The notes beneath the pieces were generated by a model. The model had not been told where the DNA came from, searched no databases, and saw nothing but the letters and a program-made list of their open reading frames with translations. A stretch of 47,156 bases of DNA from Acidobacteria bacterium RIFCSPLOWO2_12_FULL_65_11 (lineage in GTDB: Bacteria > Acidobacteriota > Vicinamibacteria > Vicinamibacterales > CAVVIG01): positions 9,877 through 57,032 of the forward strand of contig MELA01000099.1 of the NCBI GenBank assembly GCA_001767495.1, in the 5' to 3' direction. Positions 4,000 to 47,156 of the stretch are shown piece after piece. Position 1 is the first letter of the stretch. Each line of letters opens with the position of its first letter. The translations under genes and the position numbers were made by a program.

Positions 4000-5535
<1,536 letters not shown>

Positions 5536-5563
5536 GCGACGCTTGGCTCACATCGGGCGGCTG

Positions 5564-6124: not shown

Positions 6125-6135
6125 GAGATCCAATT

Positions 6136-6552: not shown

Positions 6553-6722
6553 GGGGCGTCGCTGTTTGGTTATGTTACGCTCGTCCCACGTCATCCTGCC
6601 TGATGGGGTCGAGCGATCGTTGCGAGGCTGACCGGCGCCGCTTCACAGGATCTTGACGGAACACGGGCCGCGGCAGTACAAGGATCCGGCGACACCACCC
6701 GGGATGGGGAGAATCATAATCA

Positions 6723-8075
6723 ATGAAGAAGCTGCTCGTCTTACTGGCCATTATCTGTCTCGCGTCATCCTGGAACTTTGGCTGGAACTTTGGCTGGAAC
6801 TTCGGCCTCGCCCAGGCTCCGGCGGCCCAGAGCCTGGTCATCACCAACGGACGAATCCTCGACGGCAACGGCCGCGTGATCGAGCGCGGCTCGGTCGTGG
6901 TCCGGGACGGACGGATCGTCTCGGTTTCCGAGGGGACGGCAACCGTCCCGGGCGCACAGCAGCTCGATGCGCAAGGCCGGACCGTCATGCCTGGATTCAT
7001 CGACGGCCATCGTCACGTCATCCAAGGAGATGCGACGCAGTGGCTGAACGAGCAGGCCCGGGCACGGATGCAGGATTATCTTGATGCCGGGTTCACGACC
7101 ATCCTGTCCGCGGGCGACTCCCAGCAGCAGATCCTGGAGCTGCGGCGGCGACTGCAGCAGGGCGAAATCCCTGGTCCCACGCTGATTGTGTCGGGGCGCG
7201 TGGCTTTGGCTGGGCGCGGCGGCGCGCCTGCCACGCCGGCACCCTCTGGTGGCGCGGCGCGCGGCGCGGGTGCCGGCGGCGGGCGCGGAGACCCGGCACG
7301 GTTTGACGTGGCGCGGCCGCCTCTTCGTCCCACACAGGCCGCCCCGGCGATCCCCGACGAGCAGACGCGGGCCGCGGTGCAGGCGCTCAAGGCGGCCGGC
7401 GTGGACGCGATCAAGACGGGGATCACCGTCACGCCCGGCGGCCCCGAGAAGGCGACGCTGACGGTTGTGGCGCAGGAAGCCCGGCGGCTGGGGATTGTGA
7501 CCATCACGCACGCGGTCACCGTCGAGGACACGCTCGCGGCGGTCGAAGCCGGCGTGGACGTGCTCGTGCACACGCCGCATATCGGCCGGTTGGAGGAATC
7601 GGACGCCGCGGTTCAGAAGATTGCCAGGTCGGGCATTCCCATGATGTCCACGCTGGCCATCTTCGTCCCACGGTTTGTCGGCAGCGACAACGTGCCCCAG
7701 TTCCGCGACCTCCTGCCATTTCCCTTCGACACGCTGTCGAGCGCCGGCCAGGGCCCGGTGAATGCGCGTCTGCTGTGGGAGGCCGGCCTCACCTACGGGT
7801 ACGGCACCGACACCAGCTATCGCCCCGTCGACTCGCTCGCGCACGAGCTGAAGCCGCTCAGCCTCGTCTTCTCCTCACGGGACATCGTCCGAATCCTGAC
7901 GCGCAACGCCGCGGTGGCGGTCCGCCGCCTCGACCAGATTGGGACGCTCGAGCCGGGCAAGCTCGCCGACATCACGATCGTCGACGGCGATCCGCTGGCC
8001 GACGTCAACAATGTCCTGAAGGTCGCCGTCGTGGTCAAAGGCGGAAAAATCGTCGTCGACAAACGTCAACGTTAG
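6723..8075 (+). CDS. Exported imidazolonepropionase-like amidohydrolase
   Basis: 450 aa. The signal peptide (MKKLLVLLAIICLASS...LAQA) contains an odd WNFG triple repeat. The amidohydrolase fold is clear: TNGRILDGNG at the N-terminal beta domain, metal ligands in PGFIDGHRHV, a probable metal-binding Lys near AIKTGITVTPGG, THAVT and VHTPHIG histidines, YGTDTS as the final Asp, and LEPGKLADITIVDGDPL closing the fold. A Gly/Ala/Pro/Arg-rich loop at about residues 160-190 interrupts the barrel. Substrate unknown; related enzymes hydrolyse cyclic amides or dipeptides. First gene of a three-gene cluster with the GSDH-like and alpha/beta hydrolase genes. A paralog lies at 33363-34736. Confidence 0.88.
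   Translation: MKKLLVLLAIICLASSWNFGWNFGWNFGLAQAPAAQSLVITNGRILDGNGRVIERGSVVVRDGRIVSVSEGTATVPGAQQLDAQGRTVMPGFIDGHRHVIQGDATQWLNEQARARMQDYLDAGFTTILSAGDSQQQILELRRRLQQGEIPGPTLIVSGRVALAGRGGAPATPAPSGGAARGAGAGGGRGDPARFDVARPPLRPTQAAPAIPDEQTRAAVQALKAAGVDAIKTGITVTPGGPEKATLTVVAQEARRLGIVTITHAVTVEDTLAAVEAGVDVLVHTPHIGRLEESDAAVQKIARSGIPMMSTLAIFVPRFVGSDNVPQFRDLLPFPFDTLSSAGQGPVNARLLWEAGLTYGYGTDTSYRPVDSLAHELKPLSLVFSSRDIVRILTRNAAVAVRRLDQIGTLEPGKLADITIVDGDPLADVNNVLKVAVVVKGGKIVVDKRQR
6771..6806 (+). repeat. Three tandem 12-bp units in a signal-peptide region
   Basis: TGGAACTTTGGC is repeated three times (third copy TGGAACTTCGGC), encoding Trp-Asn-Phe-Gly three times between the hydrophobic core and the probable cleavage site LAQA. 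The frame is kept, so the tract can change length without breaking the gene. Confidence 0.9.
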
Positions 8076-8092
8076 CGATTCGGGAGAACCTG

Positions 8093-9544
8093 ATGCGGCG
8101 TTCATTCAATCTTTCATCCAACCTTTCGACTCTTCGTCCGACTCACGTGATGCTGGCCGCGACGCTGATGGCCGCACTGGTGTTCGCGCAGACGCCCGGC
8201 GATCCGTTTCCGACGCCCATCCCCGCCGCCGACGGCGCGATCAAGGTGGACTTCGTCGAGTTCGCCTCGATTCCCGACAGCGACGGACAGGCGGCCCGGA
8301 TGATGCTGCTCGTCGACGAGCCGGGCACGCGCCGCATGTTCGTCAACGACATGCGCGGCCCGCTCCACAGCGTCAGCTACGACGGCAAGACCGTCACGCA
8401 ATACCTCGATATCAATGCGGCGACTTGGGGAGTGCTCGTCAATTCCACCGGGAACGAGCGCGGTGTCCAGAGCTTCGCCTTCCATCCCCAGTTCGGCCGG
8501 GCCGGCACGCCGGGCTTTGGAAAGTTCTACACGCTGCTCGACACGAGCAATGTCGACCCTCCGCCCGACTTCAGGCCGCTCGGGGCCACCACCAACACGC
8601 ACGATACGGTCCTGCTCGAATGGACCGCCAGAACACCCAGCGCCGCGACATACGACGGCGGCGCGCCGCGCGAGCTGATGCGGTGGGAGCAGCCGTTTGC
8701 CAACCACAACGCCGGCCACCTGACGTTCAATCCGCTCGCGACACCCGCGAGTTCCGACTTCGGGCTGATTTACATGGGCTTTGCCGACGGCGGCAGCGGG
8801 GGCGACCCGCTCAATCTCGCGCAGAACCGGAGCTCGGCGTTCGGGAAGATCCTGCGCATCGACCCGATCGGCAGGAATAGCGCCAACGGCAAGTACGGCA
8901 TTCCGGCCAATAACCCGTTCGTCAACGCCGGCGCTGGCACGCTCGGCGAGATCTACGCCGAGGGCCTGCGCAATCCGCAGCGCTTCGCCTGGGACTCGAG
9001 AAACGGCAGCATGTTTGTGGCCGACATCGGGCAGAACATCGTGGAGAAGGTCAGCCTCGTGACGGCCGGCGCCAACCTCGGGTGGAACAAGTGGGAAGGC
9101 AGCTACCCGTTCGCCGGTCGCGGGATCACGATCGAGAACCTCCGCGGCGATCCGGCGATCATCTATCCGCTGGTCGAGTACGGCCAAGTGGATCCGCTGT
9201 TCCAGCCGCAGTCTGCCGTGACCATGTGCTGCGTCTACCGCCGGACCGAGATCCGTCAGTTGACGGGCCTGGTGCTGTTCGGCGACAACCCGAGCGGAGA
9301 GATCTTCTACTTCAACGCCGACACGCTCCCCAAAGGAGGACAGGATTCCATCCGCCGCGTTCTGTTCAACGACAAGGGCGTCCCAAAGACGCTCCTCCAG
9401 TTGATTCAGGAAAAAGCTGCCGCGCTCGGCAAGCAGCCGGTTTCGCGCGCGGACCTGCGCTTCGGCCCGGGACCGGACGGTCAGATCTTCATTCTCAACA
9501 AGCGTGATGGAACGATTCGCCTGCTCGTTCCCTCGCGTCCCTAA
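8093..9544 (+). CDS. Exported glucose/sorbosone dehydrogenase-like (GSDH) beta-propeller
   Basis: 483 aa from the ATG at 8093, preceded by GGGAG 7-8 nt upstream. An N-terminal export signal (hydrophobic HVMLAATLMAALVFA) is followed by the six-bladed propeller fold of PQQ-type soluble aldose dehydrogenases: GVQSFAFHPQFG, ANHNAGHLTFNP, SSAFGKILRIDPIG, GEIYAEGLRNPQRFAWD, FVADIGQNIVEKV and NLGWNKWEG. These are the family hallmarks. The family usually oxidises sugars in the periplasm with bound PQQ, but many Acidobacteria members have unknown substrates and cofactor use cannot be read here. It starts 17 nt after the amidohydrolase stop. Confidence 0.85.
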   Translation: MRRSFNLSSNLSTLRPTHVMLAATLMAALVFAQTPGDPFPTPIPAADGAIKVDFVEFASIPDSDGQAARMMLLVDEPGTRRMFVNDMRGPLHSVSYDGKTVTQYLDINAATWGVLVNSTGNERGVQSFAFHPQFGRAGTPGFGKFYTLLDTSNVDPPPDFRPLGATTNTHDTVLLEWTARTPSAATYDGGAPRELMRWEQPFANHNAGHLTFNPLATPASSDFGLIYMGFADGGSGGDPLNLAQNRSSAFGKILRIDPIGRNSANGKYGIPANNPFVNAGAGTLGEIYAEGLRNPQRFAWDSRNGSMFVADIGQNIVEKVSLVTAGANLGWNKWEGSYPFAGRGITIENLRGDPAIIYPLVEYGQVDPLFQPQSAVTMCCVYRRTEIRQLTGLVLFGDNPSGEIFYFNADTLPKGGQDSIRRVLFNDKGVPKTLLQLIQEKAAALGKQPVSRADLRFGPGPDGQIFILNKRDGTIRLLVPSRP

Positions 9545-9583
9545 CGAATGCGGCGCCGAACGCGCAGACCTGGGAGCTCAGCC

Positions 9584-11842
9584 ATGACATCGAACGACGA
9601 GGGCCGAATCGGCCGACGCGACTTCTTGCGCGGAGCGGCGGCGCTCGGCACGCTGCCGGCGTGGATCGCGCTCTCTGGCCGCAACTCCGAGGCGGCCGTC
9701 GCGCAGGCCGCGTCTGCCGGCTCGCAGCCGATCCTCGATCTCGCCGAGTGGACCTATGGCTACATCGGCATGGAGACGGTGACGTTGCCGCGCGGCGAGC
9801 TTCTCACCGGTAAGAACATCTACGTCGAGTTCTGGGTTCCGCGGCAGATCCGCCATCCGTACCCGATCGTGCTCGTCCACGGCGGCACGGGCCAGGGCCT
9901 CGATTGGATGGCGACGCCGGATGGACGCCGCGGCTGGGCGCTTCAGCTCGTCGAACAGGGATACAAGGTCTGCGTCGTCGATCGACCAGGACAGGGCCGG
10001 CCGCCATACGTGCCGGATCTTCATGGGGCCTTCAGTCCGCAGGCACCGACGTACGAGGCCGCCGAGCAGAACGTCAGCGCCCTTGCCAAGCGCACGACGG
10101 CTGCCAATCCACTCGCCCAGCGGCACACGCAATGGCCGGGGACGGGCGAAGTCGGCGATCCCGCGCTCGATCATTTTCTCGCCGCGCAAGGACCGGCCGT
10201 TCCCAGCGCCGCCGGCGCCGAAGGCGCCTGGCGTTTCAGCGGCTCGAAACTGCTCGACGAGATCGGCCCCGCGATCATCCTGACTCATGGCGACAGCAGC
10301 GCCCTGGCCTGGATCGCCGCCGACGAGCGGCCGACTCTGGTGAAAGGCATCGTCGTGATCGAGCCGGTTGGTCCCACGGTGGTCGCCGGCGGCGGTGGCC
10401 GCGGGGCGGCTGGCGGCGCGGCGCGCGCATGGGGACTGACGGCGACGGCGATGGCTTTCGAACCGCCAGCCTCGGCCCCAGCGGATCTGCGGCTCGTTCC
10501 CCAGACACCGAGCGATGTCGGCATCGCCCCGTTCGTGCTGCAGACCGAGCCCGCCCGCAGGCTGAAGAATCTCGCTGGCGTACCGGTGGCCGTCGTCACC
10601 GCCGAAGCCTCGGCTGCCAATCAGCGCGATCCAGGAACGGTGTCGTTCCTGCGCCAAGGCGGCTGCACGGTCGACCATCTCAGGCTCGTCGATGCTGGGG
10701 TGCGGGGCAACGGTCCGTATCCGATGATGGAAAGGAACAGTCGCGAAGCGCTGCAGCCGATCCTTGCGTGGATCGATCGGCGGGTGAACCCGGGCGCGCC
10801 GGCGATTATCCAGGCCCCGACACGCCCCAACAGCGATTCGACGGCGCTTCGGCTCGCCGAACAGGGCTACTTCTTCGTGGGTGTCGATCGCAAGAAGGTC
10901 GCGTACGGCACGGTGGCCGTCGGTCAGAGTGGCGTCCAGTCGTTCATTCCGGTGGAGGTTCGCCACCCGAATCCGATCGTGCTGGTTCACGGAGGTCTGG
11001 GTCAGGCCGCCCACATGATGGGCATCGGCCGCCGGCCGGGTTGGGTCCACTACTTTGTCCGCGAAGGGTACCGCGTATACGTGATGGATCGTCCGGCGTG
11101 CGGCCGCGTGCCGCTTCACCCCGATACATTCGGCGCGGACTATCTGGCCGGTTTCGGCGGCGGCACCAACCTCGCCAACATTCTCCGGAACTCGGCGACC
11201 GCGCCGGGCAATCCGCGCAACACGGGACTGCGCGGCGAGGAGCTCGGGCTTCAGTTCGTCGCCAACGAATCGGGCCTGCCGCGCAGGATGGCCGAACACA
11301 GCGAGCACTGGGCCAAAGGCGCCGTCGAGCTCATCGAGAAGATCGGTCCGGCGATCGTCCTGACGCACGCCTTTGGCGGGTGCCTTGGCTGGATTGCCGC
11401 CGACCGGCGGCCAAGTCTCGTGAAGGCTCTCGTCACCGTCGAGGGCAACAACAATCCGTTCGAGGGTGAAGTGGTGTGGGGTGTCACCGCGGTCCCCCTT
11501 GCGTACGATCCCCCGGTGTCGGATCCGAAAGACATCGCGCTCGCAGACTGGACCCCGCCGGTTGGATCTCCGGGACCGAACCGGGCGTTCAGAATCCAGG
11601 CCGAGCCGGCGCGCAAGCTGAAGAATCTTGCCGGCATTCCCATCCTGTGGATGCAAGGCGAGAACAACTACTCCGGCCCCGCACAAGTCCAGTTTCTGAA
11701 ACAGTCCGGGTGCGATGCCGAGTTCATTCGCCTCCGGGACCTGGGCATCGTCGGCAACACCAACTTGATGCTGCTCGAAAGAAACAACTTCGAAGTGTTC
11801 GGTGTGATCCGCGACTGGCTGGCCAGGCGTGCGACGCGCTGA
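9584..11842 (+). CDS. Tat-exported tandem alpha/beta hydrolase-fold protein, catalytic residues lost
   Basis: 752 aa from the ATG at 9584, with GGGAG just upstream. RRDFLRGAAALG is a Tat signal. Two homologous alpha/beta hydrolase domains follow: residues ~60-400 (PIVLVHGGTGQGLDW, ILTHGDSSALAWIAADERP) and ~440-750 (PIVLVHGGLGQAAHMMG, VLTHAFGGCLGWIAADRRP). In homologues as I know them the nucleophile elbow reads LTHSQGG; here the aligned residue is Gly236 in domain 1 and Ala596 in domain 2. The catalytic histidine of the GNGHMMMLEKNN motif is Pro378 and Asn727. Either both domains are non-enzymatic, or Ser238 is used in a shifted register in domain 1. Last gene of the amidohydrolase-GSDH cluster. 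Confidence 0.85.
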   Translation: MTSNDEGRIGRRDFLRGAAALGTLPAWIALSGRNSEAAVAQAASAGSQPILDLAEWTYGYIGMETVTLPRGELLTGKNIYVEFWVPRQIRHPYPIVLVHGGTGQGLDWMATPDGRRGWALQLVEQGYKVCVVDRPGQGRPPYVPDLHGAFSPQAPTYEAAEQNVSALAKRTTAANPLAQRHTQWPGTGEVGDPALDHFLAAQGPAVPSAAGAEGAWRFSGSKLLDEIGPAIILTHGDSSALAWIAADERPTLVKGIVVIEPVGPTVVAGGGGRGAAGGAARAWGLTATAMAFEPPASAPADLRLVPQTPSDVGIAPFVLQTEPARRLKNLAGVPVAVVTAEASAANQRDPGTVSFLRQGGCTVDHLRLVDAGVRGNGPYPMMERNSREALQPILAWIDRRVNPGAPAIIQAPTRPNSDSTALRLAEQGYFFVGVDRKKVAYGTVAVGQSGVQSFIPVEVRHPNPIVLVHGGLGQAAHMMGIGRRPGWVHYFVREGYRVYVMDRPACGRVPLHPDTFGADYLAGFGGGTNLANILRNSATAPGNPRNTGLRGEELGLQFVANESGLPRRMAEHSEHWAKGAVELIEKIGPAIVLTHAFGGCLGWIAADRRPSLVKALVTVEGNNNPFEGEVVWGVTAVPLAYDPPVSDPKDIALADWTPPVGSPGPNRAFRIQAEPARKLKNLAGIPILWMQGENNYSGPAQVQFLKQSGCDAEFIRLRDLGIVGNTNLMLLERNNFEVFGVIRDWLARRATR

Positions 11843-11964
11843 CTGATTCCCCGGCTCGTCCCCTCGCGCCCTTAGCATTCAAGCACTTCCGGCAATCCCT
11901 TGGGGTTTCGGCTGTCTTGAGATGTCACACCAAATTGTCGCCGGCCAAGATAGGATGTCCGCCC

Positions 11965-11983
11965 GGCTGAAGCCGGACACTAC
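11965..11983. repeat. TTCAG-centred short palindrome overlapping the M1 stop codon
   Basis: GGCTGAAGCCGGACACTAC is one copy of a short palindrome family also seen at 19171-19276 and 23189-23212. The TAG stop of the M1 peptidase (minus strand) falls inside the element's GTAGTG border, so the insertion now supplies the end of that gene. The stretch 11843-11964 between the two converging genes shows nothing else. Confidence 0.75.
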
Positions 11984-14565
11984 TTCAGCAGCTTCGCGGC
12001 GCGAAACAGCGGATCGGCCGAGGAAAGCAGCACCCACCGCAGGCGCGGCGGGTAGTCGGTGGGCAGGCCGGCGATAAAGGCTCGGACGTCGGCCGCATTC
12101 TGTACGGATTGGTAGCCGCCGAGCGACGCGTCGGCCCATCGCTTGGGAAAGAAGATGTCGCCCGTGCGCTGGATCTCGCGCACCAGGTCGAGCGCGGCCG
12201 GAATGTACTTCTGTGACGCGGCCGCCCGCAGCGGATGGTTCAGGTATCGCGCGGCATCGAGCACCCACGCCTCGCGGGCCCGGTTCTTCACGTCCTTCAA
12301 GCTGACGAAGAAGGTATCGCGCACGGCGGGATCGGCCGAGAGCGCCGGCATGACGAACTGGAACCGCGCCTTGCGGTCGGGATTCTTGAACCGCAGCACC
12401 TGCGCGTCGAGCAGCATCGCGGCGCCCGGCACCTCGCGAAGCGCGAGGTCGAACGCCAGATCGGCTTCGTCTGCTTCAGCCAGCGGCAGGCCGGCGATCG
12501 TCACTTCGTGCGACCACAGCTGCGTGAGCCACGCCATCGTGTCCGGCGTCAGCGCCGTGCTGCGCAGGGCCGCAAACCAGGCGGCCTTGGCGCTGGTCGT
12601 CGTCGCGCGATCGAGTCCGGAGCGAAGGAGCTTCTCCAGCCCAGGCGCGAGGGAGGGTCGATCGTCGGCCGCGGTGAATCGCCAGAACGCCGTCCGCAGA
12701 TAATCGAGCATCTGCTGGACGTTCTGCTCGTCGGTCTCTCTCGGGAGCGCCACCATCAGCTCCTGCAGCACCCGCGACGACGCGACGGCGCCCTCGAGCA
12801 TCGATTCCCAGAGGGCGACCAGGGCCGCGCCGCGCGTGAGCGGATCGCCGATCTCGTGGAGTGAGTTCGCGAGGTAATCAATTGTTTCTGGATCGAGATC
12901 GAAGAAACCGTAACCGAGACCGCCGCCCACGGGCAGCACCCAGGCGGGCGCCGGCAGGCCAGCCGCCTGCGGCACCTCTGTCTCGCCGCCGGTCAGTCTG
13001 ATGTCGAAGGCGATCGGTTCGCCCGGCACGCCCACGATCACCTGCAGCCGCTCAGGCCACGCCAGATTCCGCCCGAGCGGGTCGTCCTGGGCGAATGCCA
13101 GCCGTTCGATCCGGCCGCCGGAGACGGAGAGTTTCGTCCGCACGGTCGGCCGCCCCCGCTCTTCAACCCATGCGCGGCTCCAGGCGGCGATATCCTCCGG
13201 CGTGCGCGCGTCGAGAATGCTCACGAGGTCCGACCACGTGGCGTTGCCAAACGCGTGCGCCTTGAGGTACTCGCGCAATCCGTCCCGAAACGCGCCGACG
13301 CCGACGAGCAGCTCGAGTTGGCGCATGACGATCGGCGCCTTCTGATAGATGATGGCGCCGTACAGGCTGCCTGCCTCGTTCAGGTTCGCCAGATCCTGAC
13401 GGATGGGATTGCTGCCGTCGGTCCGATCGACGTCGTACGCGATCGGATAGTGCTGATAGAGAAATCGCAGGTCGTGATTGACGGTCGGAAACGAGGGGTT
13501 GACGATCTTGGCCGCCATGAAGTTGGCGAACACTTCCTTCATCCACACATCGTTGAACCACTTCATCGTCACCAGATCCCCGAACCACATGTGCGCCGTC
13601 TCGTGCGAGATCAGGCTGGCGCGACCGAGCAGCTGGTTCTGCGTTGCCGCTTCGTCCAGCATCAGGCCGGCGGCGTTGTAGTAGATGGCGCCGGCGTGCT
13701 CCATGCCGCCGAATTGGAACGAAGGAATCAGCACGAAGTCGAACTTGCCAAACGCGTACGGGATGGCGGTGTAGTCCTCGAGCCAGGCGACCGCCTGTGC
13801 ATGCAAATCGAAGATCGTCTCCCTGTTACGCGCGACCTTGGCGGCGTCGGTCTCGCGGTGGAACATCCGGAACGTGCGCCCCTGCCGCTCGGAGGTTTCG
13901 ATGCTGAACTTGCCGGCGGCGAAGCCAAAGAGGTACGTCGGGAGCGGCTGGGTTTCTTCAAAGACCAGGACGGCCTGCCCGGGCTCGGTCGATCGTCGGG
14001 TCCCGCGGCCGTTCGACACCGCGGTCCATCCGAGTGGGATGTCGAGCGACAGCCGCCAGCGCGCCTTGAGATCGGGCTGATCGAAGCAGGGCATGGCCAG
14101 CGACGCTCGCGCGGGCACGAACAGTGAGTACATGAACTCGTCGTTGCGGTTGAGCGGCTCGTCGCCCGCGAGGAACTCGAAGTGGACGAGGTTGGCGCCT
14201 TCGACCAGCCGGCTGGGGGGAATCACGACGTGGCCGTTCTGGACGCGCGCCTCGGTCGCCTGGCCGTTGGCCGTGACGCCGGTCAGGCGTTCGGCCGGCT
14301 GTGCGAAGTCGAAGGCGAGCGGCCGCGTCGCGTCGCCGAGGACGAACGACGCCGTCACGTGCCCGCGGACCGGCTGGTCGCGGGCAGGGGGTACCGTCAG
14401 GCTGAGGTCGTAGGCAAGCGACGACACGCGCGCCGCCCGGTCTTCGGCCAGCGCCAGCGAAATGCCGCGCGAGGGCGCCTCTCTCTCGCGCCCGAGCGAC
14501 ACGATGATATCGGCGGCCACCACGGTCAGGACCACGATGCCGGCTGCCAGCAGCCCGCGCGTCAC
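11980..14565 (-). CDS. M1 family zinc aminopeptidase
   Basis: 861 aa from a GTG start; one N-terminal hydrophobic segment (LLAAGIVVLTVVAADIIV) suggests a signal anchor or export. The zinc site is HETAH followed, after 18 residues, by the glutamate of MKEVF; WFGDLVTMKWFNDVW is classic M1. The exopeptidase loop reads GGMEH rather than GAMEN, and the transition-state tyrosine lies in GAIIYQKAPIV. The long C-terminal helical half (about residues 480-861) matches ERAP1_C-type domains. Likely role: removal of N-terminal residues from peptides outside the cytoplasm. The stop codon lies in a short palindrome repeat. Confidence 0.9.
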   Translation of the reverse strand: MTRGLLAAGIVVLTVVAADIIVSLGREREAPSRGISLALAEDRAARVSSLAYDLSLTVPPARDQPVRGHVTASFVLGDATRPLAFDFAQPAERLTGVTANGQATEARVQNGHVVIPPSRLVEGANLVHFEFLAGDEPLNRNDEFMYSLFVPARASLAMPCFDQPDLKARWRLSLDIPLGWTAVSNGRGTRRSTEPGQAVLVFEETQPLPTYLFGFAAGKFSIETSERQGRTFRMFHRETDAAKVARNRETIFDLHAQAVAWLEDYTAIPYAFGKFDFVLIPSFQFGGMEHAGAIYYNAAGLMLDEAATQNQLLGRASLISHETAHMWFGDLVTMKWFNDVWMKEVFANFMAAKIVNPSFPTVNHDLRFLYQHYPIAYDVDRTDGSNPIRQDLANLNEAGSLYGAIIYQKAPIVMRQLELLVGVGAFRDGLREYLKAHAFGNATWSDLVSILDARTPEDIAAWSRAWVEERGRPTVRTKLSVSGGRIERLAFAQDDPLGRNLAWPERLQVIVGVPGEPIAFDIRLTGGETEVPQAAGLPAPAWVLPVGGGLGYGFFDLDPETIDYLANSLHEIGDPLTRGAALVALWESMLEGAVASSRVLQELMVALPRETDEQNVQQMLDYLRTAFWRFTAADDRPSLAPGLEKLLRSGLDRATTTSAKAAWFAALRSTALTPDTMAWLTQLWSHEVTIAGLPLAEADEADLAFDLALREVPGAAMLLDAQVLRFKNPDRKARFQFVMPALSADPAVRDTFFVSLKDVKNRAREAWVLDAARYLNHPLRAAASQKYIPAALDLVREIQRTGDIFFPKRWADASLGGYQSVQNAADVRAFIAGLPTDYPPRLRWVLLSSADPLFRAAKLLK

Positions 14566-37349: not shown

Positions 37350-40300
37350 ATGGTTACCGCGACTGACATACCTCCCAAGCCCGGCGAGGTCGTGCGGGTC
37401 CGTTCCCGGCGATACCTCGTCGAAGAGGTCGAGCCGGCGCCGACGCCGGGCGACCAGACGCTGGTCCGGCTCTCGTGTTTGGAAGACGACGCAGAGGGTG
37501 AAGAGGTCCAGGTTCTCTGGGAAAAGGAAGTCGACGCACAGCGCATCAACGAGGCTGACTGGTCGCGCCTGGCCGGCGGTAACTTCGACCAACCACATCT
37601 CTTCGCCGCGTACTATCGGACACTGCGCTGGAACTCGGTCACTTCAACCGATCCGAAGCTGTTTCAGGCGCCCTATCGGGCGGGAATCCGGATCGACGCG
37701 TACCAGCTCGAGCCGCTGAGGAAGGCGCTCCTTCTACCGCGCGTCAACCTGTTCATTGCGGACGATGTGGGGTTGGGGAAGACCATCGAGGCTGGCCTCA
37801 TCGTTCGCGAGCTGCTCATGCGCCAGCGCGTCAGGCGGATTGTCGTTGCCGCGCCGCCATCGGTCCTGCTTCAGTGGAAGGAAGAACTGGACCAGCGCTT
37901 CGGCCTGACGTTCGTGGTCTTCGACCGCGAGTACGTAAGAAGAATGCGCCAGGAGCGTGGCTTCTCGGTGAATCCGTGGACGACGCATTCGCGGTTCATC
38001 GTGTCCCATCGCTTGCTGCGCGATCCGGATTACAAGATTCTTCTGGACGACTGGCTCGAGAGTGCCGGGCTGAGTGGGAGCCTTCTCATCCTTGATGAGG
38101 CGCACAATGCCGCGCCGGCCAGCGGTGCTCGCTACGCCATCGACTCGCAGTTTACAAAGGCCATTCGCGAGGTCGCACCGAAGTTCGAGCATCGGCTCTT
38201 CCTGTCGGCCACTCCACACAACGGCCACTCGAACAGCTTCTCGGCCTTGCTAGAGATCCTGGATCCGCAGCGCTTCTGTCGTGGTGTGCCAGTAGATGGC
38301 GCTAAGCAGCTCGAGCCGGTGATGGTGCGGAGGTTGAAAGATGACCTCCGGCGTCTGCAGGGCGGCTTCCCGAAGCGCGAGGTTGTCGAAGTGCCCGTCG
38401 TGGGCCTGAAAGAAGACAACCCGGAGCTGTTGTTGCCTCGGCTGCTGGACGAATACCGGCAGGCGAGGGAAGAGCGCCTTGTGAATTCGCACAAGTCGGT
38501 GCGCATGGCCGCCACTCTCGTGCTCTGCAGCTTGCAGAAGCGCTTGCTGTCGTCCATCGAAGCATTCGCCTGCACCCTTCGCGTTCACCGAAAATCATTC
38601 GAGGCCGCTGCGAACGCGAGTGCAGTAACCGCAAATGTAGGGCCCGGTCTTCAGACCGGGCCGACTCAGACCGGTCCGACTCAAGCCAGTCCGAACCTGG
38701 CCCAGCTCAAGCTCCTGACCAACGCACCTGACGCGGACGATGAACGGGCAGAGGCCGCTGAAGATGACGTGACCGCGCAGGATGATGCGGTGATGGCGGC
38801 AGCGACGGCGCGGACGATGGGTGAGGCGTCTGCGGATGTGTACAAGAAGGAGCGAGATCTCCTGACACGCATGTCCGAAGTCGCCGACGCCGCCCGCGGC
38901 CTGCCAGACGCCCGCGTAACCTATCTGATCAACTGGATCAAGAAACACAACCAGCGCGTGCTGATCTTCACGGAATACTCCGACACGAAGCGCTACCTGG
39001 AGAAGCAGCTTCGGGCCGCGGTGACACAGGGCCGTGAGTCCGACCCTCTCATTGCCACCTATCACGGCGGGATGACAGACGAAGCACGAGAGGATGTGAA
39101 GCGGGCCTTCAACGCCGATCCGCAGAAGCATCAGCTTCGAGTGCTCATCGCGACCGATGCGGCGCGCGAGGGCGTGAACCTGCAGAATCACTGTGCGGAC
39201 CTGTTTCACTTCGACGTGCCGTGGAATCCGAGTCGTGTGGAGCAGCGGAACGGCCGGATTGACCGCAAGCTCCAGCGGGCCGAGGAAGTCCGTTGTCATT
39301 ACTTCATCTACGAGCAGCGCCCGGAGGATCGGGTGTTGAAGGCGCTCGTCGAAAAGACCAAGACCATCAGGCGCGAGTTGGGAAGCCTTGCGCCGGTGCT
39401 CGAGCGAAAGCTTGAGGATCGGCTGAGCATGGGCTTTGCGCGCAAGGATGCGGCGGCGCTTGCGAACGCGATAAGAGATGAACAACTGGACGCTGAGCGG
39501 CTGAAGACGACGGAGGCTGAGCTCGAGTCTGGTCGAAAGCGGGAGGCGGATCTTAAGACCGAGATCTCAGGGCTTCAGGATCTACTCGAGAAATCGAGGA
39601 ACTGGTTGCGCCTGGACGAAGCCGACTTGCGGCAGGCGATCTCCTGTGGCCTGGAGCTGCTCGGCGCCAATGCGCTTCAGCCGACAAAGAAGGACGGCGA
39701 ATTCCAACTCCCGGATCTCTCGTCCCATGCCCAGACGGACCCGTCCTGGATGCATACGCTCGACACGCTGCGGGCGCCACAGCGCAAGGGTCAGCCCGTG
39801 TGGGAGTGGCGGAAGCAGCAGCCGATTCGACCAGTCGTCTTTGAAGACCAGGGTTCGTTGGACGCCACGGACGTGCACCTTCACCTGGAGCATCGGTTCG
39901 TGCAGCGCCTGCTCGGGCGCTTTCGGTCCCAGGGGTTTGTCCATCACGATCTGACCCGCGCGTGTGTCGTCCTCACGAAGGATCCGGTTCCACGCGTCAT
40001 CCTGCTCGGTCGCCTGTCGCTGTACGGACAGCGGGCTTCACGCCTGCACGATCAGGTGCTGGCCGTCGCGGCTCGGTGGGCAGACGCGACGATCCGGAGC
40101 GAGACGTTGAAGCCGTACGCTGACGCCACGCTCGACAAGACGCTGGAGCTGCTCGAGCAGGCACTCAGCGCGGAGACGTTGCTGCCCGACCTGCCCTTGC
40201 AGGTCCGTCAGAGGCTCAGTTCGGGGGCTTCGCGCGACCTCGATGAGCTGCGTCCACATCTCAAGGTTCAGGCGGACGACCTCAGCACTCGCGCGACGGC

Positions 40301-40598
40301 CGAGCTCCGGGCGCGGGGCGACAGGGAAGCGACCGAGATGCGAGCGATTCTCGAGACGCAGCGGAAGCGCATTCAGGCGACGGCCGTTGAAAAGGAGAAG
40401 GACCTCCAGCAGCCTGGTCTCTTCGATCAAGAGGAGCGCAAGCAAGTCGAGGCCGACAAGCGCTACTGGCACAAGCGGCTGGAGGAGCTGGCCCGCGAGC
40501 TCGACACCGAGCCCGCCCGCATCCGTCAGAGCTACGAGGTCAAGACTGCCCGCTTCGAGCCCGTCGGCCTCATCTATCTCTGGCCCGTGACGGGGTAG
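37350..40598 (+). CDS. drmD: SNF2-like helicase, DISARM DrmD type
   Basis: 1082 aa from the ATG at 37350 (GGAGG 2-3 nt before). Superfamily 2 motifs: ADDVGLGKTIEAGL (I, ~137-150), LLILDEAHNAA (II, ~246-256), LSATPHNGH (III), VLIFTEYSDTKRYLEKQL (IV), VLIATDAAREGVNLQN and FDVPWNPSRVEQRNGRIDR (V/VI). Motif I and the HepA/RapA-like layout fit DrmD, the helicase of class 1 DISARM, which is normally followed by the methylase. The C-terminal third is coiled-coil rich. A palindrome at 38636-38662 has been inserted in frame, giving VGPGLQTGPTQTGPTQASPN between the helicase lobes. drmA, drmB and drmC are not in the window. Confidence 0.82.
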   Translation: MVTATDIPPKPGEVVRVRSRRYLVEEVEPAPTPGDQTLVRLSCLEDDAEGEEVQVLWEKEVDAQRINEADWSRLAGGNFDQPHLFAAYYRTLRWNSVTSTDPKLFQAPYRAGIRIDAYQLEPLRKALLLPRVNLFIADDVGLGKTIEAGLIVRELLMRQRVRRIVVAAPPSVLLQWKEELDQRFGLTFVVFDREYVRRMRQERGFSVNPWTTHSRFIVSHRLLRDPDYKILLDDWLESAGLSGSLLILDEAHNAAPASGARYAIDSQFTKAIREVAPKFEHRLFLSATPHNGHSNSFSALLEILDPQRFCRGVPVDGAKQLEPVMVRRLKDDLRRLQGGFPKREVVEVPVVGLKEDNPELLLPRLLDEYRQAREERLVNSHKSVRMAATLVLCSLQKRLLSSIEAFACTLRVHRKSFEAAANASAVTANVGPGLQTGPTQTGPTQASPNLAQLKLLTNAPDADDERAEAAEDDVTAQDDAVMAAATARTMGEASADVYKKERDLLTRMSEVADAARGLPDARVTYLINWIKKHNQRVLIFTEYSDTKRYLEKQLRAAVTQGRESDPLIATYHGGMTDEAREDVKRAFNADPQKHQLRVLIATDAAREGVNLQNHCADLFHFDVPWNPSRVEQRNGRIDRKLQRAEEVRCHYFIYEQRPEDRVLKALVEKTKTIRRELGSLAPVLERKLEDRLSMGFARKDAAALANAIRDEQLDAERLKTTEAELESGRKREADLKTEISGLQDLLEKSRNWLRLDEADLRQAISCGLELLGANALQPTKKDGEFQLPDLSSHAQTDPSWMHTLDTLRAPQRKGQPVWEWRKQQPIRPVVFEDQGSLDATDVHLHLEHRFVQRLLGRFRSQGFVHHDLTRACVVLTKDPVPRVILLGRLSLYGQRASRLHDQVLAVAARWADATIRSETLKPYADATLDKTLELLEQALSAETLLPDLPLQVRQRLSSGASRDLDELRPHLKVQADDLSTRATAELRARGDREATEMRAILETQRKRIQATAVEKEKDLQQPGLFDQEERKQVEADKRYWHKRLEELARELDTEPARIRQSYEVKTARFEPVGLIYLWPVTG
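38636..38662. repeat. In-frame palindromic insert inside the helicase gene
   Basis: TGTAG is followed by a perfect hairpin, arms GGCCCGGTCT and AGACCGGGCC around TC; the centre is CTTCAG, as in the intergenic copies. It is read in frame, and a degenerate 15-bp tandem unit (ACCGGGCCGACTCAG, ACCGGTCCGACTCAA) follows to about 38692, encoding GPTQ-type repeats in a linker between the two helicase lobes. Confidence 0.85.
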
Positions 40599-40601
40599 GC
40601 G

Positions 40602-43600
40602 ATGGCACAGGTTCCCCCCGAACTCCAGGCGCACAAGGAATGGCTGGGCCAGATCCAGCAGGTGGGGCTTGTTGTTTCGCCGAGCGTGCTCGTCAAGCAC
40701 GGCGTGTTCATCGAGCGCCAGAAGGCGGTTGAGAAGCAGGAACGCCTCCGTGAGCTGGTTCAAGAAGAGGACGGGCTCCGCAGCATGGACTGGCCGACCG
40801 TCTGCCGCGAGCTGCTCGAATGGCCCGATAACCTGCTGGCCGGTGCGGTCGGTGGCCCGGCGCTTCCTGACAGCCTCGTCGTTGCGCTGCCCGAGTACGA
40901 CGACCGCCTCGCGCCGACCTATGCCGTTGCCGATCCCGACCCAGCACCAAACTGGCTCCTCCTTATTAATGTTGTGGAGCCCGAGACGGATTTCGATGCG
41001 GCCCCTCCGGCAGATCGGCAGCATCACGGCTGGCGGACCAGTCCGCACGCGCGCCTGGAGCGACTGCTTCGAGCGACTGGCGTGCCGATTGGCCTCCTCT
41101 TTAGTGGCGGTGCTCTCCGCCTCATCTACGCACCGCAAGGCGAGTCGTCTGGCCACCTGACGTTTCGCTTTTCAGATCTGGTTCAGACGCTCGGCCGGCC
41201 CATGGTCGGCGCGCTCTGCGCGCTGCTCGGTGTCGAGCGGGTGACGGACGTTCAGCAGGAGGCGCAGCGGCTGCCGGCGCTCCTCAAAGAGAGCCGTAGG
41301 TATCAGAACGAGGTCTCCACCGAGCTGGCCGGACAGGTACTCGAGGCGCTGTGGGAACTTGTGCGCGGATTCCAGCGCGCGAACGAGCACGCGCACGGCG
41401 CGCTCCTGGACCAGGCGTTGCGCGAGGCTCCGAACGACGTCTACGGCGGCCTCCTTTCCACGCTGATGCGTCTTGTCTTCGTTCTGTACGCCGAAGACCG
41501 AGGGCTGATGCCGAAGAGCGAGGTGTACCAGAAGCACTACTCGATCTCGGGGCTCTTCGAGCGGTTGCGGGACGATGAAGCGCGGTATCCAGATACGATG
41601 GACGCGCGTTTCGGATCGTGGACGCAGCTCCTGGCACTCTTTCGCCTTGTCCACGACGGTGGTGGTCACGGCGACATGCGCTTCCCAGCGCGGCATGGCC
41701 GGCTGTTCAATCCCGACGCGTACCCTTTCTTAGAAGGCCGGCCGTCCGGCAGCGTCCGCGTGATGGGCGAGCCCATCGATCCGCCGCATATTTCTGACGG
41801 CGTTGTGTTTCGGGTGCTGAAGAACCTGCTCATCCTTGACGGCGAGCGGCTGTCCTATCGGACGCTCGACGTGGAGCAGATCGGTTCGGTCTACGAAGCG
41901 ATGATGGGTTTTGCACTTCAGCAGGCGGCAGGCCCCTCTATCGCCACCACTCCCAAGAACATCGTCTTCAACATCGCGGAGCTGCTCGAGCAGAAGCCGA
42001 AGGATCGTGCTGCGTGGCTGCAGAAGGAAACCGAACTGAAGACGACTGGCGACGCGCTGGCGAAGGCCGCGTCGGATGACGAGGTGATGGCGGCGCTCGG
42101 CCGGAGGGTGTCGCGCTACACGCCGCACGTGCTGCCTCCGGGTGCAATGTATTTGCAGCCTACTGAAGAGCGGCGGCGATCCGGTTCTCACTACACGCCG
42201 CGCTCCCTGACTGCGCCCATCGTCCACACCACATTTCGGCCCATCCTCGAGCGGCTGGGCGACCAGGCCACGCCGGATCAGATTCTCGATCTCAAGGTGT
42301 GCGATCCAGCGATGGGATCGGGCGCGTTTCTTGTCGAGGCATGTCGGTTGCTCGCCGAGAGGCTGGTTCGCGCGTGGGAGGTACGCAAGCAGATCCCGAA
42401 GGTACCCGACGACGAGGATGTGCTGACGTATGCTCGGCGGCTGGTAGCCGAGCGGTGTCTCTATGGCGTGGACAAGAACCCGTTCGCAGTGGACCTCGCC
42501 AAGCTTTCGCTCTGGCTGGCCACGCTAGCGCGCGAGCATCCGTTCACGTTTCTCGATCATGCGCTACGGCACGGCGACTCGCTTGTGGGCCTCTCGCGCG
42601 AGCAAATTGCGTGTTTCAGTTGGGAGACAGCGAAGCAGCTGCCCCTGCTACGGACGCTCATCGACGGGCGCGTGGCCGAAGCGCAGGCCCTGCGCGAACG
42701 GATTCAGAGCCTCGCCACGGTAGACGATGTGCCCGAGCAGGCGCGGCTGTTGAGGGAAGCGAACGACGCGTTGCATAACGTGCGGCACATTGGCGACCTT
42801 GTCGTGTCGGCGTTCTTCGAACGGGAAAAGCCGAAGGATCGGCAGACGCTCCGTGCGGCGTACGCCGGTCAGGCTGAGCAGTGGCTGTTGCAGCGGGACA
42901 GCGGGGCTTTCGTACGGCCGGACTTCAGTCCGGCCGTAGTGACCTTCCACTGGGAGATCGAATTCCCCGAAGTCTTCACCCGCAGCAACGGCGGCTTCGA
43001 CGCCTTCGTTGGCAATCCGCCGTTCCTTGGGGGAACGCGGATCTCGACCGTTCTCGGAAACTCGTATCGTGATTTTCTCTTGACAGTCCACTTAGAAAGC
43101 CACGGCAATGCGGACTTGGTGTCCTACTTCTTCCGCAGCTGCTTTGATCGCACACGCCGGGGTGGAGCTCTTGGACTACTCGCGACCAAGACTATTGCTC
43201 AAGGCGACACTAGATTCACAGGGCTTCGTTGGATCTTGAACAAGGGCGGTACGATCTATTCCGCGCGCAAGAGGTACAAGTGGCCGGGCCTCGCGGCTGT
43301 CACCGTTAGCATCGTTCACCTGATACGCGAGGAGTCGCCGGCATGGCCCTTCCTGCTAGATGACGAAGTCGTTGGGCATGTTACGGCCTTCCTCCTCGAT
43401 GCGGGAGGAAATGATGATCCGAGGCCCTTGTCTCACAACGCTGGTGTCAGCTTTCTCGGTAGCAAGATTTACGGCCGGGGCTTCCTCTTCGACAACGAGG
43501 ACGCCGCAGCTACGCCAGTCAGCGAGATGGAGCGGCTAATCGCTGTGGACCCACGCAACCGGGAACGGATCTTCCCCTACCTGAGCGGCGAAGATATCAA

Positions 43601-44513
43601 CGACAGCCCAACACACGAGCATCATCGTTACGTCATTGGCTTCGGAGAGATGTCAGAGTCAGAGGCTCATTCGTGGCCCGAGTTGTTCCGGATAATCGAA
43701 ACGAAGGTGAAACCCGAGCGTCTCCGTTTGCGGGACACTTCTGATGGACGTCGGCTCAAGCAGTACTGGTGGCAGTGGGGCCGCTACCGACCTGAACTAC
43801 ATCAAGTGATCCAGGGGCTCGATCGAGTACTAGTCTGTTCCGGCGTCAGTAAGCACTTGGCCTTTGCCTGGCGACCCACGTCTTACGCCTTCTCCCACAA
43901 CGTGAATGTCTTTGCGCTAGTTCGCAGTTCGCAGTTCACCGTCCTTCAATCCAGAGTGCACGAGCTCTTCGCAGTGACATTCTCCTCAACTCTTGAAGAT
44001 CGGCAGGGATATCGAGGCTCAGACTGCTTCGAGACGTTTCCCTTCCCTGATGGTTGGCACATGAGCTCGAGTCTTGAGGACAGCGGCCGCGAGTACTACG
44101 AATTCCGTGCCACCCTGATGGTCCTGAACAAGGAAGGCCTGACGAACACTTACAATCGCTTCCACGACCCGGACGAACAGGACCCTGATGTCTTGAAGCT
44201 CCGCGACCTGCACGCCGCCATGGATCGCGCCGTTCTCGACGCCTACGGCTGGACCGACGTCCGGCCGCGCTGCGAGTTCATTCTCGACTACGTGGACGAG
44301 GAAGACGACAATCCCGGCAAGCCGACCAAGAAGAAGAAGCCGTACCGTTACCGCTGGCCGGACGAGATCCGTGACGAGGTCCTCGGGCGGCTGCTGGAGC
44401 TAAACGCCCAGCGCGCCAAGGAAGAAGAGCTGGCCGGTCTTGCCGCAGGTGCGGGCCACGCCAAGCCCAAACAGAGTAGCAATTCTCGGTCGCGGACGCC
44501 GCTCCTGGATTGA
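40602..44513 (+). CDS. N6-adenine DNA methyltransferase, DrmMI/Eco57I type
   Basis: 1303 aa, starting 3 nt after the helicase stop, so translationally coupled. The N-terminal half (residues ~100-560) has the conserved RLERLLRATGVPIGLLFSGGALRLIYAPQGESSGHL and FVLYAEDRGLMP. The AdoMet motif I is VCDPAMGSGAFLVEACRLLAERL (~566-588), and motif IV is NPPF (805-808), with GNPPFLGGTRIS. The C-terminal region has target-recognition character (YRYRWPDEIRDEVLGRLLELN). It methylates adenine to mark self DNA. The last ~1.3 kb is visibly less GC-rich. A palindrome at 42915-42936 is inserted in frame as VRPDFSPAVV, just before FHWEIEFPEVF. Confidence 0.85.
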   Translation: MAQVPPELQAHKEWLGQIQQVGLVVSPSVLVKHGVFIERQKAVEKQERLRELVQEEDGLRSMDWPTVCRELLEWPDNLLAGAVGGPALPDSLVVALPEYDDRLAPTYAVADPDPAPNWLLLINVVEPETDFDAAPPADRQHHGWRTSPHARLERLLRATGVPIGLLFSGGALRLIYAPQGESSGHLTFRFSDLVQTLGRPMVGALCALLGVERVTDVQQEAQRLPALLKESRRYQNEVSTELAGQVLEALWELVRGFQRANEHAHGALLDQALREAPNDVYGGLLSTLMRLVFVLYAEDRGLMPKSEVYQKHYSISGLFERLRDDEARYPDTMDARFGSWTQLLALFRLVHDGGGHGDMRFPARHGRLFNPDAYPFLEGRPSGSVRVMGEPIDPPHISDGVVFRVLKNLLILDGERLSYRTLDVEQIGSVYEAMMGFALQQAAGPSIATTPKNIVFNIAELLEQKPKDRAAWLQKETELKTTGDALAKAASDDEVMAALGRRVSRYTPHVLPPGAMYLQPTEERRRSGSHYTPRSLTAPIVHTTFRPILERLGDQATPDQILDLKVCDPAMGSGAFLVEACRLLAERLVRAWEVRKQIPKVPDDEDVLTYARRLVAERCLYGVDKNPFAVDLAKLSLWLATLAREHPFTFLDHALRHGDSLVGLSREQIACFSWETAKQLPLLRTLIDGRVAEAQALRERIQSLATVDDVPEQARLLREANDALHNVRHIGDLVVSAFFEREKPKDRQTLRAAYAGQAEQWLLQRDSGAFVRPDFSPAVVTFHWEIEFPEVFTRSNGGFDAFVGNPPFLGGTRISTVLGNSYRDFLLTVHLESHGNADLVSYFFRSCFDRTRRGGALGLLATKTIAQGDTRFTGLRWILNKGGTIYSARKRYKWPGLAAVTVSIVHLIREESPAWPFLLDDEVVGHVTAFLLDAGGNDDPRPLSHNAGVSFLGSKIYGRGFLFDNEDAAATPVSEMERLIAVDPRNRERIFPYLSGEDINDSPTHEHHRYVIGFGEMSESEAHSWPELFRIIETKVKPERLRLRDTSDGRRLKQYWWQWGRYRPELHQVIQGLDRVLVCSGVSKHLAFAWRPTSYAFSHNVNVFALVRSSQFTVLQSRVHELFAVTFSSTLEDRQGYRGSDCFETFPFPDGWHMSSSLEDSGREYYEFRATLMVLNKEGLTNTYNRFHDPDEQDPDVLKLRDLHAAMDRAVLDAYGWTDVRPRCEFILDYVDEEDDNPGKPTKKKKPYRYRWPDEIRDEVLGRLLELNAQRAKEEELAGLAAGAGHAKPKQSSNSRSRTPLLD
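42915..42936. repeat. In-frame palindromic insert inside the methyltransferase gene
   Basis: Arms CGGCCGGACT and AGTCCGGCCG surround TC, giving a perfect 22-nt hairpin bordered by GTA and TAG. It is the same TTCAG-centred design as the copy in the helicase gene and keeps the frame open. Confidence 0.85.
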
Positions 44514-44528
44514 TCGCACCGAACGGCT

Positions 44529-45953
44529 GTGACTCTCTCCGCACTCGCGTCCATATCCAATCTGACGCTAGCATGGCGGCGCGTCACCACGGGCGGAAAC
44601 TATCCGTACAAGAAGTACTTCCGGCACCTGTATTACTCATACGAACTCGCACTCGATGAAAACCTGAATGATCTTCGGACGAAGATACTCGCATTATCGT
44701 GGCAGCCCCAGTCGCCAGAGAGAGTCTACGTGCCGAAACCTTCAGGACTGCAACGGCCTCTAACGCTGCTGCACGTCGAGGATCAGATTGTCTTGCAGGC
44801 GCTCGCGAACGTAATCGCGAGGAAGGTTGAAGAGAAGCGGAAGCCGTTTGTTTATCAGTCTGTCTTCAGCAATATTCTTCAGTCTCGCCGTAACATCTTT
44901 TTCGTCAAGAACTGGCATCGGACGTACTGGGCGTTCTGTTCAAGAATTGAGCAGAACTACAAGGCAGGACTCTTGTGGGTGGCGGACTTCGATTTGGCGG
45001 CGTTTTACGACACCATTTCCCACGATCTGCTACTGAGGACAGCATTCCCGAGGCTTAAGAAGTCGAGCGAAGTCGATTGGATCTGTCGGTGTCTGAGCCA
45101 ATGGACATCTCAGCGTCCCAGAGACTCAAAGGGTCACGGACTGCCTCAAGGACCCATCGCTTCAGATTTCTTGGCAGAAGTGTTTCTTCTGCCAATCGAC
45201 CAGGCGATGAGAGGTATCGACGGATATATACGGTACGTCGACGACGTCCGCCTGTTCGGCGCAACTGAAACAGATGTTCGACGAGCAGTCCTCAAGCTGG
45301 AGATCGAGTGTCGGGAACGGGGCCTGATACCTCAGGTGGGCAAGTTCGCCATACACAAAGTGAGATCCCTCGAAGAAGCGCGAGGAATGCTCCCGAGCCT
45401 TGGAGAGCCAAAGGAATCAAATTCGCCGCGCATAGCGCCAACAACAGCTGAGAGATTGTTGCGACCTGCAATTGGAGGCCGCCCTCTGAGGGTTCTCGAC
45501 AAAACCCGGCTTCGTTACGTACTTTTTCGTGCGAATCGGTCTTCGCGTATCCGCCGACTTGTCTGCTTGCTAGTGTCTCGGGCTCCTGAACATGTTGACG
45601 CCTTCGCCGCTTTTCTTTCGCAGTACGAATATCACCGGACCATTCGTGACTGCTGCCTTGCCACGCTGGCGACAACGCCCTACGAGTATGTTGCCGGAGA
45701 GATGTGGCACCTGCTAGCAAAGTTCTATGCGACAACGGGCGCCTTTACTGCCGCGGTTCGTCGCGAGCTCTTGTCAAAGGCCATCGCCACCCTAAAGGAT
45801 AGGCACGCTGGACTCGCAGTGAAATGGGGCGCTGCTCATTTCCTCTCTGAGGCCGAGAACACCGATCGTCGCCGCTACACGCGCTTCCTTCGATATTGTG
45901 GGTTCCGGAAACTCTGGCCTGTCAGTTCCGGAAATTCTGGCCAGTTGATGTGA
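44529..45953 (+). CDS. Reverse transcriptase, defence-associated type, 3' end replaced by IS21
   Basis: 474 aa from a GTG 15 nt after the methyltransferase stop; no strong ribosome site, so coupling is likely. RT motifs: VPKPSGLQRPLTLLHVEDQIVLQALANVI (RT1-2), VADFDLAAFYDTISHDLL (A, catalytic Asp near 155), GLPQGPIASDFLAEVFLLPID (B) and YIRYVDDVRLFG (C, Y236VDD239), then GLIPQVGKF. No maturase or integrase domain; a C-terminal helical region of about 150 residues follows. It looks like a bacterial RT of an unknown-group/defence class. The last ~18 residues (from GFRKLWPVSSG) are encoded by the IS21 end, so the native C-terminus is lost. Confidence 0.85.
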   Translation: MTLSALASISNLTLAWRRVTTGGNYPYKKYFRHLYYSYELALDENLNDLRTKILALSWQPQSPERVYVPKPSGLQRPLTLLHVEDQIVLQALANVIARKVEEKRKPFVYQSVFSNILQSRRNIFFVKNWHRTYWAFCSRIEQNYKAGLLWVADFDLAAFYDTISHDLLLRTAFPRLKKSSEVDWICRCLSQWTSQRPRDSKGHGLPQGPIASDFLAEVFLLPIDQAMRGIDGYIRYVDDVRLFGATETDVRRAVLKLEIECRERGLIPQVGKFAIHKVRSLEEARGMLPSLGEPKESNSPRIAPTTAERLLRPAIGGRPLRVLDKTRLRYVLFRANRSSRIRRLVCLLVSRAPEHVDAFAAFLSQYEYHRTIRDCCLATLATTPYEYVAGEMWHLLAKFYATTGAFTAAVRRELLSKAIATLKDRHAGLAVKWGAAHFLSEAENTDRRRYTRFLRYCGFRKLWPVSSGNSGQLM

Positions 45954-46718
45954 AGCCTCCGGTGACGTGGCATCGTCGAGCCCGAGGTGTGTGGTCCGGA
46001 GAGACGGTCCATCAAGTGTGAGCAGCCGGCCGCGCTCCAGGACGCGGTCGACGATCGCGAGAGCGAGGTCTTCGTCATGCAGCACGCGCCCCCACGCATT
46101 GAGCGGCTTGTTGGTCGTGAAGATCATCGTACGCTTGTGCCGGTGGCGATCGTTGACGACGTGGAAGAGCATGTTCGCGGCATCGGTGCCATAGGTAAGA
46201 TACCCGACTTCGTCGACGACCAGCACGGCCGGGTGCGTGTACGTCGCCAGCCGCTCGGCGAGGTGGCCGCTGCGGAAGGCGCTCGACAGATCGTCGATGA
46301 GTTCAGCGGCGGTGACGAAGCGCGCCTCAAACCCGTTTTGAATCGCGCGATACGCAATGGCGATCGCCAGATGGGTTTTGCCACGTCCCGGTTTGCCGGT
46401 CAAGATCAGCGACTGGCCTTCGGTGACAAAGTCGGGCGACAACGCGGAGCCGAGCAGCGAGAGCCGTACGACGCTTTGATAGGTGAAGTCAAAGTCGTCG
46501 ATGGTCTTGAGAAACGGGAAGTGCGCCCAGCGCGACACGCGCCCCAGGCGCGTCTGTTGGCGATGGGCAATCTCTTCGGCCAGGAGCAGCGACAGAAAGT
46601 CGCGACAGGACCAATCCTCGCGTTCGGCGCGGACCACGAGGTCCCGCCACACCCGTCGGGCATTGGCGAGATGCAACCGTTTGAAGCAGCCGTCCAGATC
46701 GAGGTCCGGGATCTTCAT
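45792..46718 (-). CDS. istB: IS21-family helper ATPase IstB
   Basis: 308 aa from the ATG at 46718. Walker A LTGKPGRGKTHLAIAIAYRA, Walker B VLVVDEVGYLTYG, sensor region KRTMIFTTNKPLNAWG and LERGRLLTLDGPSLRTTHLG are IstB/DnaC-type. The ATPase activates IstA transposase and selects targets. The start overlaps the istA stop (ATGA). The frame passes the element's end at about 45899 and continues ~35 residues into RT antisense, because both terminal repeats are open in this frame. Confidence 0.93.
   Translation of the reverse strand: MKIPDLDLDGCFKRLHLANARRVWRDLVVRAEREDWSCRDFLSLLLAEEIAHRQQTRLGRVSRWAHFPFLKTIDDFDFTYQSVVRLSLLGSALSPDFVTEGQSLILTGKPGRGKTHLAIAIAYRAIQNGFEARFVTAAELIDDLSSAFRSGHLAERLATYTHPAVLVVDEVGYLTYGTDAANMLFHVVNDRHRHKRTMIFTTNKPLNAWGRVLHDEDLALAIVDRVLERGRLLTLDGPSLRTTHLGLDDATSPEASHQLARISGTDRPEFPEPTISKEARVAATIGVLGLREEMSSAPFHCESSVPIL
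45903..45942. repeat. Two terminal repeats of the IS21 end
   Basis: TTCCGGAAACTCTGGCC (45903-45919) and TTCCGGAAATTCTGGCC (45926-45942) differ at one base and are separated by 6 nt. Multiple such terminal repeats are transposase-binding sites in IS21-family elements. Confidence 0.85.
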
Positions 46719-47156
46719 GACCGTCCTCCGTCGGCGGACGCGTGTGGCGCCGTGGCCGACGGCAGGTCGAGCCGAAGCTGCTCGTCAGGCGAAATCGACC
46801 CGCCAGGATGCCCCAGGACCGACGATCGATCGACCGCTGGACCTGCGCTATCCCCTGAAATCGGGGTCGGCAGGGTCACCGACGCGGCCAGGTAATGCCC
46901 GATGTACTCGGCGCCGATCACCTGTTCGTCGAGGCCGCGTGCGAAGGCGGCCCGCATCGCGTCGGGGCCGTACGTGGTGAGCCACCCATGAAGCCGCTCG
47001 ACGTCGCGCACCCAGATCCGCGGGCGGCGATGAATCAATTCGGTCAAGTATGCCAACGCGGGTGCGCCCAGCTCGAGCAGGTGCTTGTTAGCGAACGCTG
47101 AAATACGGCCACGAGCGAACGTCTGAAAACCGGCCACTTCGGGTAGGGCTTCTGAG
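46715..47156 (-). CDS. istA: IstA transposase, C-terminal part (cut by window edge)
   Basis: About 146 residues read from the window edge to the stop at 46715-46717. EVAGFQTFARGRISAFANKH, LAYLTELIHRRPRIWVRDVERLH and EQVIGAEYIGHYL match the C-terminal tail of IS21-type IstA proteins. The catalytic DDE domain lies outside. The stop overlaps the istB start as ATGA. Confidence 0.75.
   Translation of the reverse strand, partial: SEALPEVAGFQTFARGRISAFANKHLLELGAPALAYLTELIHRRPRIWVRDVERLHGWLTTYGPDAMRAAFARGLDEQVIGAEYIGHYLAASVTLPTPISGDSAGPAVDRSSVLGHPGGSISPDEQLRLDLPSATAPHASADGGRS

Follow-up and report, generated by a model that had tools for sequence, protein, structure and literature searches.

In DISARM, the DrmAB complex is autoinhibited, loads on single-stranded DNA with a 5' overhang and is restrained by methylation, and DrmC is a nuclease; DISARM operons may also carry auxiliary genes (PMC9142583). 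A second system of interest here is AbiA, which is built of RT-like, helical and HEPN domains. Its HEPN motif is RNSNPVSH, and removal of the HEPN domain abolishes its polymerase activity (PMC11077055). For the UG19 class of reverse transcriptases (RTs), we found no experimental report on function in the literature searched. Here we analyzed a stretch of 47,156 nucleotides (the window, positions 9877 to 57032 of contig C99), in which an earlier note had described a DrmD-like helicase, a DrmMI-like methyltransferase and an RT gene as a possible hybrid of DISARM and RT. We consider, with a probability of roughly 0.88, that the locus is a class 1 DISARM operon whose cargo slot holds a stand-alone UG19 RT, now broken by nested insertion sequences. 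Like class 1 DISARM, the locus has the five genes on a single strand and in their usual order. It differs by the RT and a DUF5131/TcmP block in the interval between drmMI and drmA, and by the nested insertion sequences. By analogy with the described systems, DrmMI would mark the host DNA, and DrmAB, together with DrmD and the nuclease DrmC, would load on unmarked phage DNA containing single-stranded stretches; nothing at this locus departs from the published DISARM mechanism.

DISARM genes on two contigs

Three open reading frames (ORFs) lie on the plus strand of the window (37350-40598, 40602-44513 and 44529-45953); 3 nt separate drmD from drmMI, and 15 nt lie between drmMI and the RT gene. 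The earlier note was built on this trio and its spacing; the ORFs were found again, and profiles support all of them as real genes. The proposed DrmD-like and DrmMI-like identities are borne out as well. The first product scores 1083 bits with NF038317 (DISARM_DrmD; cut-off, 610) and 1055 bits with the PADLOC DrmD profile. The second is PADLOC DrmMI, with 1314 bits. It also matches both Eco57I and MmeI_Mtase of Pfam and is 33-52% identical to the methyltransferases encoded in class 1 DISARM loci on plasmids. An Rfam scan of the window gave zero RNA families.

The end of the window is also the end of its contig, which breaks off within an insertion sequence. When the RT of another genome, G091 (699 aa), was searched against the assembly of the window, residues 3-459 were found on C99 and residues 456-698 on a second contig, C152. 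On the minus strand of C152, the C-terminal half of the RT is followed by an XRE-like gene, two ORFs, DUF5131, TcmP, drmA, drmB and drmC (Table 1), and a run of N at about positions 3800-4050 interrupts the drmB frame in the assembly. Taken together, C99 and C152 carry every gene of class 1 DISARM in the usual order: drmD-drmMI-(cargo)-drmA-drmB-drmC. The RT had been thought to stand in the place of drmABC, and it had been proposed to look for these genes past the IS21 element. All three are present there, on C152, linked via the RT half and the nested transposon junctions, so this is not a variant that lacks drmABC. Replacement of drmABC by the RT was therefore rejected. The same result led us to reject a separate three-gene system of DrmD, DrmMI and RT without drmABC. 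The window does show these three genes only, but drmA, drmB and drmC are joined to them through the other RT half, and, provided that C99 and C152 are adjacent, such a system is refuted; we regard it as next to impossible.

Table 1. Features of the locus in the window (C99) and on contig C152.
Feature	Position	Strand	Evidence or remark
drmD, DISARM SNF2-like helicase, 1082 aa	window 37350..40598	+	NF038317 and PADLOC DrmD
drmMI, DISARM adenine methyltransferase, 1303 aa	window 40602..44513	+	PADLOC DrmMI, Pfam
UG19-class RT, N-terminal 456 codons, interrupted after Y456	window 44529..45896	+	PADLOC RT_UG19; G091 homologue
GATAT, left copy of the IS21 target-site duplication	window 45892..45896	.	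right copy on C152 beside the RT C-terminal half
IS21-family element in the RT: terminal repeat TGTGGGTTCCGG, istB, C-terminal part of istA	window 45897..47085	-	
istB	window 46718-45792 (ORF)	-	IstB NF038214, 213 bits
End of second mobile element, inserted in istA, duplication AGCACC; assembly breaks	window 47086..47156	.	
RT C-terminal half	C152:13521-12793, to 12790	-	alignment to the G091 RT
XRE-like small ORF	C152, after the RT C-terminal half	-	by eye
Two ORFs, 268 and 249 aa, without family match	C152 (= L059) 10776-12279	-	
DUF5131	C152, followed by TcmP	-	PF07505, 325 bits
TcmP	C152, between DUF5131 and drmA	-	TIGR04474, 163 bits
drmA helicase	C152:5389-8799	-	NF038325, 1185 bits (cut-off, 950)
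drmB (DUF1998)	C152:5392-3511, after drmA	-	NF038324, above cut-off
drmC, phospholipase-D-like nuclease	C152:3511-2726	-	NF038319, 187 bits (cut-off, 133)
Tannase gene	C152, beyond drmC		

The junctions on the two contigs fit together. On C99 the RT sequence ends with ...CGATAT, followed by TGTGGGTTCCGG; C152 reads ...CGGAACCCGCA, followed by GATATCAG and the remainder of the RT. The 5-bp duplication GATAT is present on both contigs, and the ends of the insertion sequence agree at 10 of the first 11 bases. The assignment to IS21 made in the earlier note is confirmed by IstB in the window (NF038214, 213 bits) and by the N-terminal part of istA on C152 (NF033546, 194 bits), the end of istA being on C99. 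The element resembles the IS21 family in its istA and istB genes, its TG...CA ends and the 5-bp duplication, and differs in having a second element within istA. This second element splits istA, with a 6-bp duplication (AGCACC) on both sides. Its end sequence recurs on contig C124 (99%) and on C152, where it is reached inward from the other side (83%), and it is at this multi-copy element that the assembly broke. Because the contig break falls at a transposon, the window imitates a new gene cassette.

Based on the logic of these junctions, C99 and C152 are probably adjacent. The assembly is fragmented, with 153 contigs, which would fit the alternative that the two contigs belong to separate strains or loci, their link being a coincidence of mis-binning. 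Two independent duplications with matching insertion sequence ends, complementary halves of both istA and the RT, and the lack of drmABC on C99 but not on C152 all argue against this, and we consider it extremely unlikely.

Two smaller observations concern the same region. The istB frame is free of stops up to the end of the insertion sequence at 45897 and continues into the RT gene. On C152, the 268-aa ORF resembles by eye the SocA/Panacea-type antitoxins and the 249-aa ORF has a MazF-like KRRPAVVIS stretch, also noted by eye; the two are possibly a toxin-antitoxin pair.

The reverse transcriptase and its relatives

The window RT scores 417 bits with PADLOC RT_UG19 (profile positions 3-432 of 562), and the next RT class reaches 162 bits; a relative of the window RT scores 492 bits with the same profile. 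Identity to residues 1-458 of the G091 RT is 49%. Motif A (DFDLAAFYD) and YVDD are unbroken, in agreement with the earlier description of the gene as an RT with intact catalytic aspartates. In its best profile and its RT motifs, the protein resembles the UG19 defense-associated RTs, and it differs from them by the split after residue 456. Only positions 44529-45896 of the ORF 44529-45953 are RT sequence; the final 18 codons are IS21 sequence, as the frame runs in the transposon from 45897 onward. The ORF is therefore not a full-length RT, since IS21 follows codon 456 and the remaining part, about 240 C-terminal residues that are absent from the window, lies on C152.

The motif R[NS]xLPxSH is kept in the C-terminal half of all three UG19 RTs, with the form RNALPVSH in G091. 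The likeness between AbiA and the UG19 RTs is at the motif level only: the C-terminal half has an R-x6-H motif, and the pattern of HEPN domains is R-X(4-6)-H. Profile searches with this half against PDB and Pfam gave no match, neither to AbiA nor to a HEPN family, and the AlphaFold model of the C-terminal part of the RT at locus L004 (pLDDT 45) is too poor for use. By analogy, the RT would have worked independently, probably in the manner of an AbiA-like polymerase whose C-terminal domain is HEPN-like. If the analogy with AbiA holds, the insertion of the IS21 element, which bears the second element, would have inactivated the window RT.

Two clear relatives of the window RT were found. The G091 RT adjoins a TIR gene and is near CBASS cyclase and effector genes, and the RT at Poribacteria locus L004 is situated between unrelated metabolic genes; neither has DISARM genes beside it. 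The L004 RT (1026-3224) is in two frames, split near 1500-1533; either the assembly is wrong here or this is another copy of the gene that is broken. A single-protein scan of genome contigs with the RT returned one relative and a scan of viral contigs none, and among the matches listed for plasmids and phages there were only distant RTs, with 23-31% identity. A UG19 HMM was run on 396 genomes of the phylum, 162 of the order and 142 from the class to which G091 belongs; full-strength matches came only from the window and from G091. UG19 RTs are rare in the genomes sampled. As only two clear relatives were found, a rare linkage of DISARM and UG19 elsewhere could be missed.

The interval between drmMI and drmA

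DrmD scored above the NCBI cut-off in 17 of the 396 phylum genomes. No RT was detected between drmMI and drmA at the 10 loci of the phylum where both genes were seen, nor at 16 loci on plasmids of Cyanobacteriota, Pseudomonadota and Deinococcota; together, this is 0 of 26 class 1 DISARM loci other than that of the window. RTs were sought with a profile built from 41 of them, and it did pick up those at L078, L080, L048 and L004. The earlier note had held that recurrent linkage would support a system; both this result and the two relatives found away from DISARM genes are outcomes that the note itself had said would count against its proposal.

The G+C content of the RT (54.6/56.2%) and of DUF5131 and TcmP (58.1%) is lower than that of drmD (63.0%), drmMI (62.0%), drmA (64.6%) and the upstream region (65.5%). 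The absence of linkage at the 26 loci, the location of the relatives away from DISARM, the rarity of UG19 RTs and the lower G+C content of the RT together indicate that the RT is a separately acquired defense gene, cargo rather than a subunit of DISARM. The cargo slot would then hold the UG19 RT, the XRE-like small gene, the two ORFs and the DUF5131/TcmP pair. The insertion of IS21 may also lower the transcription of drmABC.

One point against the cargo reading is that the RT is codirectional with drmMI and only 15 nt away from it. This arrangement, and the position of the RT inside the operon with drmMI on one side and drmA on the other, would also be expected if the RT were a functional subunit that supplements recognition by DrmAB with DNA synthesis, either RNA-templated or untemplated, and was hit only recently by an insertion sequence. 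We think this very unlikely, as the same interval of the 26 other loci is without an RT, the two relatives have no adjoining DISARM genes, the G+C content of the RT is unlike that of the drm genes and the gene is broken at this locus. What stands of the earlier proposal is that the RT is inside a DISARM locus; the hybrid and three-gene readings are not supported, given the presence of drmABC on C152 and the lack of linkage at the other loci examined. This takes away one false candidate for a DISARM built on an RT.

The RT as cargo has counterparts in other operons: in 13 of the 26 loci, more than 1 kb separates drmMI from drmA. At L070 (G377:C2, 4580-15481), this interval contains IetA/IetS (312 and 852 bits), a HEC-01A-like ATPase (529 bits) with DUF4276, an ASCH protein, and TcmP with DUF5131. 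The interval proteins of L071 (G229:C1, 4349-13310) are near-identical to those of L070, and it is by this near-identity that the family scan done on L070 covers L071. In both loci, several defense modules are nested within one DISARM operon. TcmP and DUF5131 are common to these intervals and the locus of the window, on the opposite strand in L070 and L071. Elsewhere, the interval contains a VapC-like gene (by eye) and an AAA/DUF4143 ATPase (L068), an ATPase with DUF4435 (L088), XRE regulators (L091 and L093), MqsA with SecB (L090) or XisH/XisI (L098). Class 1 DISARM in four phyla thus often has unrelated genes, even whole defense systems, between drmMI and drmA. No description of this position as a cargo site was found in the literature searched, and the slot could be mined for new systems. 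A stronger version would be that the interval is a dedicated docking site, the modules of which, including UG19 RTs, are coexpressed and cooperate with DISARM, for example with the RT extending or capping single-stranded ends recognized by DrmAB. We consider this very unlikely.

Several other loci deserve mention. L078 (G425:C62, reverse complement, 103-10480) encodes a DrmD-like helicase together with a type IIG-like methyltransferase of 1806 aa, and about 1 kb further on is a 1293-aa Drt1a RT with a nitrilase-like part (1064 bits); four similar helicase-methyltransferase loci (L075, L076, L077 and L079) are without an RT. At L080 (G365:C2, 1544-3488), drmD is truncated (440 aa); the RT fragment that comes after it (104 aa) is similar to the RTs of group II introns, and Rfam gave no intron RNA near this fragment. 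In L066 (G393:C2, 1-498, reverse complement), DrmD (957 of 1021 positions matched) is directly followed by drmC; this locus, without drmMI, drmA and drmB, is probably a deletion remnant of DISARM.
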